Part shown: positions 16,950 through 19,311 of the stretch, one piece after another
How positions within the stretch are numbered: position 1 is the first letter of the stretch
Layout: every line of letters starts with the position of its first letter
Assembly: GCF_028776105.2 (NCBI RefSeq)
Contig: NZ_CP145606.1
Span: 496,001-560,000, forward strand
Length of the DNA stretch: 64,000 bases
Direction: 5' to 3'
Source: Neisseria leonii
Lineage (GTDB): Bacteria; Pseudomonadota; Gammaproteobacteria; Burkholderiales; Neisseriaceae
Program-made: the position numbers and the translations under genes
Notes under the pieces: generated by a model
Told to the model about the DNA's origin: nothing
The model's input: only the letters and a program-made list of their open reading frames with translations
Databases searched by the model: none

Positions 16950-17585
16950 TTATTCGATGCCGGCCCATTTGTGTGTCTGCACACTCAATTGCCAATGGAC
17001 GGGGCGGTTGGCGCGGCTGTTCAAGATGCCGATTTGGCGGATGGTATCGTAAATATTCATTTCGCCGTTTTGATCGCAGGGCGAGAGATAGTAATGGGCG
17101 GCACGGATCTGCTGTTCGATTTGCCGTGCGAATGCCAATACGTCGCCGTCGGCCACAATGCGCACTTCCGAGGCCGTCTGAATACACTGTTTGCCGTATT
17201 TTTCCGCATAGCGGGCTTTGGGGCTGGCGGAAACAAAGTCGATTTGCGGCGGTGCGGGGTTGAGGCCGTTGGTTTCCATGCACAGGAAATAGCCCGCATG
17301 TTTCAGTGCATCGAGCAGAACGGGCAAATGCGGCTGTATGGTGGGTTCGCCTCCGGTAATGATGATGTTGCGGGCGGTATAGGCGTTCAGACGGCCTAAA
17401 ATATCGTGCAGCGCCATCATGCCGAAAGTGCGGTAGTCGGTATCGCACCACGGGCAGGCCAGATTGCATTTTCCCAAACGGATAAAGACGGCCGGCATAC
17501 CGGTGTTGTAGCCCTCGCCTTGCAGGCTTTCAAAAATTTCGACAATGCGGTAAGCGGGGTTTTCGGGAAGCATATCGGTCGGCAT
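16950..17585 (-). CDS. queE: 7-carboxy-7-deazaguanine synthase
   Basis: Radical SAM enzyme that makes 7-carboxy-7-deazaguanine in queuosine synthesis. The cluster motif CX3CX2C is CNLACPWC, preceded by FESLQGEG and followed by IIITGGEPTIQ. About 211 residues from the ATG at 17585; a TTG four codons upstream is the alternative. It is the last que gene of the leftward group queC-queD-DUF1304-queE, separated from the DUF1304 gene by about 70 bases. Two uptake sequences inside the gene encode IQTASEVRI and GRLNAYT. Confidence 0.94.
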   Translation of the reverse strand: MPTDMLPENPAYRIVEIFESLQGEGYNTGMPAVFIRLGKCNLACPWCDTDYRTFGMMALHDILGRLNAYTARNIIITGGEPTIQPHLPVLLDALKHAGYFLCMETNGLNPAPPQIDFVSASPKARYAEKYGKQCIQTASEVRIVADGDVLAFARQIEQQIRAAHYYLSPCDQNGEMNIYDTIRQIGILNSRANRPVHWQLSVQTHKWAGIE

Positions 17586-17658
17586 TTCTTGAATCAAGGG
17601 GGCAGGCTGTCTGAAAACGGGTTTTCGGACGGCTGAAAACGGGCTGCCGCAAAGCGGG

Positions 17659-18027
17659 TCAGGCGCATAAAACGGCCGCTAAGGCCAGTGCGGCGGGCAG
17701 ACCCTGTTTGATCAGAATATTCCTGCTTGACGTCAGTGCGCCCCAGAGTGCGGCTGTCAGCACGAAAGCGAGAAACAGCACGGTGGCGGAAGTACGGGCG
17801 TTGTCGGGAGCGAAAAACTGTGCCCAAATGATGCCGGCGGCGAGAAAGCCGTTATACAGCCCCTGATTGCTGAACATGACCTGTACGCGTTTTTGGCGCA
17901 TAAATTCTTCGGGCAGACCGAAAATACGCGAGGCCTGCGGGCCGGGGATTTTGCACATTTCGAGATACATAATGTAAAAATGTTCGGCGGCTACGATTAG
18001 GGTCAGTACGGTTGCCAAGGTTTGCAT
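17659..18027 (-). CDS. DUF1304 family membrane protein
   Basis: A 122-residue integral membrane protein with about four hydrophobic helices (residues 1-20, 50-70, 77-97, 103-121). It matches the DUF1304 pattern: EHFYIMYLEM near the start, the FMRQKRVQVMFSNQGLYNGFLAAG block and a hydrophobic C-terminus. No function is established. It starts three bases after the queD stop, so it is cotranscribed with queuosine genes. Confidence 0.8.
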   Translation of the reverse strand: MQTLATVLTLIVAAEHFYIMYLEMCKIPGPQASRIFGLPEEFMRQKRVQVMFSNQGLYNGFLAAGIIWAQFFAPDNARTSATVLFLAFVLTAALWGALTSSRNILIKQGLPAALALAAVLCA

Positions 18028-18030
18028 GAT

Positions 18031-18453
18031 TCAGTCTCCTTCATATTCGGCGCAGGATGCCGGGGTTTCCCACAGTTTGACGCGGCAAACCGCCAAGCCT
18101 GTGTTTTTCAGACGGCCGTAAATGTCCGCAGCCAGATTTTCGGCGGTGGTGCGGCGGTTCAGACGCAGGGTTTTCATGTCCCAGCTTTCCAGCAGTGCGG
18201 CGATGCGGCTTTCGCGTCCGTTGCTGCCATCATAGAGAAAAGCGTGGTCGAACGGCTCGATAACGGCCTGCCGAACCATGTTTTTCAAGTCGGAAAAATC
18301 CATGACCATACCGTCTTTCGCACCGCCGTGAATCAGGCCGCCTGAAACAGTGATTTCCAGAGAGTAAGTGTGGCCGTGCAGGTTTTGGCATTTTCCGTCG
18401 TGGCCGTCGAGCATATGGGCGGCATCGAACGTGAAGATTTTCGTGATTTTCAT
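18031..18453 (-). CDS. queD: 6-carboxytetrahydropterin synthase
   Basis: Makes 6-carboxy-tetrahydropterin for the 7-deazaguanine pathway; 140 residues. Zinc-binding His residues are in FDAAHML and [16 protein letters not shown] and FDHAFLYD follow the family, as does the late Glu in LWETPAS. Begins at the ATGA overlap with the queC stop. Confidence 0.95.
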
Positions 18454-19106
18454 GCCGCTTTGCCTGCCAGATATTCGGCCAATCCGTTTTCGCGCAAAAT
18501 ACAGCTCGGGCAGCTGCCACAACCGCCCGACACGCCGTGATAGCAGGTGTGGGTATGTTCGCGGATATAGTCGAGTGCCCCCATTTCATCGGCCAGGCCC
18601 CAAGTTTGCGCTTTGGTCAGATACATCAGCGGGGTGTGGATTTGAAAGCCGTAATCCATCGCCAGATTGAGGGTAACGTTCATCGATTTGACGAAAACGT
18701 CGCGGCAGTCGGGATAGCCGGAAAAGTCGGTTTCGCACACGCCGGTGATGATGTGGCGGATGCCTTGGCTTTTGGCGTAAATCGCCGCATAAAGCAGAAA
18801 CAGCGCGTTGCGCCCGTCGACAAAGGTATTGGGCATACCGTTTGAGGCCGTCTGAATTTCGGCGGTATTGTCCGTCAGCGCATTATGGGTAATCTGCCCC
18901 ATCAGCGACAAATCCAAAACCATATGGTGCACACCCCAATCAGCGGCGATACGTCGGGCGCATTCCAGCTCGATGGCATGACGCTGGCCGTATTGGAAAC
19001 TGAGGGCGGAAACGTTTTCTGCACCGTAGCGGCGGACTGCCTGAATCAGGCAGGTTGCGGAGTCCTGACCGCCTGAAAAGACGACCACGGCTTTTTGAGG
19101 GTTCAT
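18450..19106 (-). CDS. queC: 7-cyano-7-deazaguanine (preQ0) synthase
   Basis: ATP-dependent enzyme forming preQ0 from 7-carboxy-7-deazaguanine; 218 residues from the ATG at 19106. The PP-loop [14 protein letters not shown] is at the N-terminus; the C-terminal [18 protein letters not shown] holds four cysteines that bind zinc. First gene of the leftward que operon. Its ribosome site (AGGA, eight bases before ATG) is the 3' strand of the preQ1-I pseudoknot described separately. Confidence 0.96.
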
Positions 19107-19114
19107 ATCGGGGT

Positions 19115-19151
19115 TCCTAGTTTTGTTGTCGCGGGAGGATTGCGAACCGCG
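19115..19151 (-). promoter_or_regulatory. preQ1-I riboswitch before queC
   Basis: Read on the minus strand from 19151: CGCGG, loop TTCGCAATCCTC, CCGCG, then ACAACAAAACTAGGA. Stem P1 is 5 bp (CGCGG/CCGCG). The loop TCCT can pair with the 3' AGGA to form the H-type pseudoknot P2. The A-rich tail ACAACAAAAC between them and the loop start UUCGCA match the compact class I type 2/3 aptamers such as that of Thermoanaerobacter. The C directly before the second P1 strand is in the ligand-recognition position. AGGA is also the Shine-Dalgarno sequence of queC, so ligand binding should block translation. Confidence 0.85.
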
Positions 19152-19311
19152 TTTGGCGAAAGGCGGCATCATAACCGAAAACCGGCGTTTGATAAAACGT
19201 TTTGCACGCCCGGCAGCTTGTTTCGGGCGGCGGTTTGGGGTATGTTGCCTTTTTTGCCGATCGGCCGCCCGGGTCGGGCGGGTGTGGAATCACCAAAATC
19301 AGGATAAGGCC

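Follow-up and report, generated by a model that had tools for sequence, protein, structure and literature searches.

Riboswitches for preQ1 lie before queCDEF, queT and yhhQ (reviewed in PMC11625349), and those of class I are divided into three types. Type I aptamers have UU after the 5' strand of P1, UC before its 3' strand and CUA in the tail (PMC11625349, PMC8752633). In Carnobacterium, Haemophilus influenzae and Neisseria gonorrhoeae, such an aptamer takes up two preQ1 molecules stacked on each other (PMC8752633). For example, the gonococcal riboswitch, whose source gene is not named in the relevant passages of that paper, binds about two preQ1 with a KD near 50 nM, and the Carnobacterium riboswitch gives 15-fold repression of a reporter (PMC8752633). 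The P2 seen in type I crystals consists of C8-A12-U32, A33 opposite G9, and C10-G34, the last being a presumed pair (PMC8752633). Control by type I is described as indirect occlusion, and regulation survives when the Shine-Dalgarno sequence lies outside the aptamer (PMC11625349). Type II aptamers have AC before the 3' strand of P1 and bind one preQ1, and the Thermoanaerobacter aptamer fits this model (PMC11625349). Within Neisseria, predictions exist for two queuosine riboswitches in N. gonorrhoeae, one of them not significant (PMC4176332), and for a single one upstream of queF in N. meningitidis (PMC7237195); both species are among the carriers in a survey (PMC9495176).

The preQ1 element upstream of queC

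The window analysed here is the whole 64,000-nucleotide stretch of Neisseria leonii DNA, and on its minus strand the full match to the Rfam model RF00522 (PreQ1) spans 19111..19156. Within this match, minus strand 19151-19115 reads CGCGG-UUCGCAAUCCUC-CCGCG-ACAACAAAA-CUAGGA. From the sequence and the Rfam alignment, the two strands of P1 are CGCGG (19147..19151) and CCGCG (19130..19134), which enclose the 12-base loop UUCGCAAUCCUC (19135..19146), beginning UUCGCA. P1 is followed by the A-rich L3, ACAACAAAA (19121..19129), which exceeds the Rfam consensus by one base, the alignment placing the insert after P1. AGGA (19115..19118) is the Shine-Dalgarno sequence of queC and forms the 3' edge of the aptamer, with an eight-base spacer (19114-19107) between it and the queC ATG (19106). 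The initial annotation, made from the letters, had described the five-pair P1, the UUCGCA loop start, the A-rich tail and AGGA eight bases before queC, and all are present as claimed.

When the bases are numbered as in the crystal structure (PMC8752633), each type I mark has its equivalent. U6 and U7 (19146, 19145) directly follow the 5' strand of P1, C8-A12 occupy 19144-19140, and U16 (19136) and the specificity base C17 (19135) directly precede the 3' strand. The last A of the longer L3 corresponds to A30 (19121), and the tail CUA (19118..19120) supplies C31 (19120, the second ligand site), U32 and A33. The element thus has every base that is assigned to either ligand site (U6, U7, U16, C17, A30 and C31).

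The element scores 41.8 bits over model positions 1-45, against a gathering score of 39, with E values of 4.3e-5 for the whole window searched with all 4227 Rfam families and 3.5e-7 for the PreQ1 family alone in the 2.2 Mb genome. The genome-wide search gave three matches with E of at most 3.1e-4, and the next had an E of 8.8; the match of the queC element exceeds chance. The earlier reading of a preQ1-I riboswitch before queC, for which the Rfam covariance model had been named as the check, is thus borne out by a match above the gathering score in the window and further matches in related genomes, with a QueC protein above its model cut-off downstream. The same annotation held that gene callers miss the element, which is true of protein gene callers but not of Rfam, where it is found at the gathering score. 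The queC element stands where a preQ1 riboswitch would be expected and is a type I aptamer of class I, an ordinary member of a known and well-studied family.

Relatives and further copies

A match with E of at most 0.001 is found in 76 of the 83 genomes of the family, 71 genomes have one above the gathering score, and 7 have none (stricter filters). Of 39 genomes sampled from the genus, 38 have a match with an E of at most 0.01. All 124 matches from the family search were extracted, three from this genome and 121 from others, and every one lies directly before a queuosine gene (queF 69, queC 35, queD 11, yhhQ 9). Eight additional matches from the genus sample precede queC (7) or yhhQ (1). The 124 matches collapse to 63 distinct elements. 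UUCG after the 5' strand of P1 and AACUA after P1 occur in 63/63, but the elements were located by these strings (none failed) and the choice of matches by Rfam is biased towards them too; 61 have UC ahead of the 3' strand. Pairs 1 and 3 of P1 are formed in 51 and 62 elements, against maxima of 43 and 56 in 1000 shuffles, which ignore the relatedness of the elements. Pair 4 is formed in 62 against a shuffle maximum of 62, pairs 2 and 5 are invariant, and all five pairs are formed in 50 of the 63. P1 is kept by covariation at pairs 1 and 3.

An exact aptamer pattern matched no named locus, and a looser one gave 16, of which 15 align with the window (the longest four alignments listed for each locus are 69 to 81% identical) and one, from Saccharibacillus, does not. 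A named N. gonorrhoeae contig has a type I aptamer before queC. Saccharibacillus is a distant Gram-positive, and its aptamer (L139 4087-4120, plus strand) matches the Neisseria queC pattern exactly and precedes a gene with 26% identity to YhhQ. In another relative the queC aptamer (L141 312-363, plus strand) has, as read by eye, a P1 of apparently seven pairs (GGCGCAG/CTGCGCC) and a longer tail. In three relatives, L3 of the type I element begins with an insert (L117 1590-1658, minus strand; L146 315-373 and L147 289-348, both plus strand). The insert in L117 folds as a hairpin, GACGC/GCGTC, and those in L146 and L147 contain short inverted repeats seen by eye only. An extra hairpin in L3 is a feature of class II preQ1 RNAs. 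For class I, nothing of the kind was found in a literature listing or in passages of the review PMC11625349.

The two other copies in this genome are on the plus strand of contig C1 of G000, with the yhhQ copy 585 bases beyond the queF copy. The element before queF (1165189-1165234; L034 5190-5235) scores 38.7 bits with E 2.2e-6, and the element before yhhQ (1165774-1165819; L034 5775-5820) scores 30.2 bits with E 3.1e-4, both below the gathering score. The genes that follow them encode QueF (TIGR03139 above cut-off) and a queuosine precursor transporter of the YhhQ type (above the cut-offs of PRK11212 and TIGR00697), respectively. The queF copy has GC in place of UC before the 3' strand of P1. 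In the yhhQ copy, P1 is interrupted by an A.G mismatch, and the best simple fold of this aptamer, calculated pseudoknot-free, is not P1, which fits the mismatch. These differences raise the rather doubtful idea that the three aptamers are tuned apart, with the queC copy being the full two-ligand type I; if so, precursor synthesis, reduction and uptake would shut off at different preQ1 levels. The genome is one of the Neisseria group with a three-site preQ1 regulon covering the queC operon, queF and yhhQ, and two of the sites score below the Rfam gathering score, so that annotation at this cut-off would miss them. Among the open-licence papers listed by literature searches, 20 of 32 for one of them, none reports a preQ1 regulon of three copies in Neisseria.

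Gene context, pseudoknot register and mode of control

The genes downstream of the element are all on the minus strand. The product of queC (18450..19106) scores above the TIGR00364 cut-off and matches the solved QueC 3bl5 with E 1.3e-79. The ATG of queD (18031..18453) overlaps the queC stop codon (ATGA), a DUF1304 protein gene (17659..18027) begins three bases after queD, and a queE-like radical SAM gene (16950..17597) follows, for which QueE models are best but none reaches its curated cut-off. The proposed operon queC-queD-DUF1304-queE stands in gene order and strand, with its last gene only QueE-like. A DUF1304 relative is near que genes in 5 of the 16 named loci, many of which are cut short. 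Of six papers that contain the word DUF1304, none names queuosine in its title or the start of its abstract.

The sequence itself, its place in the Rfam family, the type I marks and the neighbouring genes are shown here, and they are best explained by a type I preQ1 riboswitch of class I that controls the translation of queC and, through the tight packing of the genes, probably of queD, the DUF1304 gene and the queE-like gene; we give this reading a probability of about 0.9. We infer ligand binding, the two-to-one stoichiometry, and repression and its direction from assayed relatives. When preQ1 is scarce, P1 alone would form and the Shine-Dalgarno sequence would be usable. With ample preQ1, a stack of two molecules would fill the pocket, one read by C17 and the other by C31, and the tail CUAGG would fold onto loop bases C8-A12, so that ribosome access to queC would drop. 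Lowered translation of queC would then mean that less precursor is made. Against this reading count the longer L3, the P2 pairs with the Shine-Dalgarno sequence, which are not conserved, and a predicted fold of the leader, taken as a guess to begin at 19161, in which the GG of AGGA is paired even in the absence of ligand, with unpaired probabilities of 0.12 and 0.07; since the leader was modelled without pseudoknots or ligand, this lack of an open ribosome site says little.

A putative promoter for the queC leader, TTATCA-16 bases-TATGAT (19168..19195, minus strand), matches the consensus at 9 of 12 positions, but it is weak alone because two promoter-like sites were found in the region against 1.7 expected by chance. 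By reading, TATAAT occurs within the 40 bases shown before the pattern match in 11 of the 16 named loci. RNA made from the site at 19195-19168 would start just before P1. Gonococcal RNA-seq placed all six riboswitches predicted there within 12 bases of the transcription start (PMC4176332). An in-frame ATG at 19172 lies in the minus-strand segment 19104-19172, and automatic callers would start QueC there and read the riboswitch as coding. The frame is indeed open from 19172, and the stretch could be coding sequence of a longer QueC of 240 amino acids with an incidental RNA match. This is barely credible, as the ATG at 19172 falls inside the putative -10 hexamer, the QueC profile begins within the first residues after the ATG at 19106, and the RNA is common to unrelated queuosine genes. 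Transcription attenuation in place of translational control, the mode of the Bacillus subtilis relative (PMC11625349), is very improbable for an aptamer that ends eight bases before the ATG. Those eight bases leave no room for a terminator, there is no terminator-like site between aptamer and gene, and such sites are at chance level in the region (4 found, 3.7 expected). The initial annotation had likened the layout to the Thermoanaerobacter aptamer, and that likeness fails just before the 3' strand of P1, because the Thermoanaerobacter aptamer is type II (AC) and the queC element type I (UC). An aptamer of that kind, binding one preQ1, would have a similar size and loop start, and both may act on translation, but type II requires the AC that is absent here, and the element has UC, UU after the 5' strand and the CUA tail; the odds against a type II assignment are accordingly long.

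The register of the pseudoknot bears on how the same riboswitch would be switched off. The crystal P2 bases correspond in the queC element to loop CGCAA and tail UAG. The initial annotation took another pairing, UCCU (19139-19136) with AGGA (19118-19115), as the key one, and four Watson-Crick pairs are possible there. This could form the off-state, either alone or as an alternative register; in 55 of the 63 distinct elements this half of the loop can make at least three pairs with the tail, and in type III the masking of AAGG is described as Watson-Crick pairing (PMC11625349). The off-state so formed is nevertheless unlikely. The solved type I structure shows another register (PMC8752633), and random dealing of the loops does as well, with a mean of 54.7 elements for at least three pairs and a mean of 12.1 for the complete UCCU:AGGA pairing, which is found in 11 of 63; two pairs or fewer are possible in this register in 8 of 63. 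As a conserved pseudoknot UCCU:AGGA was rejected, since random dealing gives as many and lends it no support. The place given to this pairing by the initial annotation is thus not upheld, within the limit that a fixed Shine-Dalgarno sequence sets on the comparison. The pairing partners of P2 in the Shine-Dalgarno sequence vary too little across the 63 elements to covary, and the lack of covariation weighs less heavily against UCCU:AGGA because the Shine-Dalgarno sequence itself is fixed. Covariation proves neither this register nor the crystal C10-G34, which is itself kept in only 17 of the 63 elements (at position 10, 31 elements have C, 20 have A, 11 have U and one has G).

Comparison with the described types

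The type I riboswitch favoured here can be set beside its described relatives. The type III riboswitch of Escherichia coli yhhQ is alike in the UU after the 5' strand of P1, the buried Shine-Dalgarno sequence and a gene of the same pathway, but differs in having AC at the specificity base, a shorter pyrimidine-rich loop and a single ligand (PMC10622847, PMC11625349); the queC element has UC and a 12-base loop. The type II riboswitches of Thermoanaerobacter tengcongensis and Bacillus subtilis share the compact class I aptamer, and that of Thermoanaerobacter acts on translation, but they differ in the AC before the 3' strand of P1 and the single preQ1 (PMC11625349). Compared with the type I riboswitches of Carnobacterium antarcticus, H. 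influenzae and N. gonorrhoeae, the queC element differs in its L3, one base above the Rfam consensus; it is like them in the UU, the UC, the A30 and C31 equivalents and the CUA tail, in the Shine-Dalgarno sequence that ends the tail, and in the queuosine gene downstream. As a copy, in one more species, of a riboswitch of a known kind, it is a clear addition to the two-ligand preQ1 subgroup.
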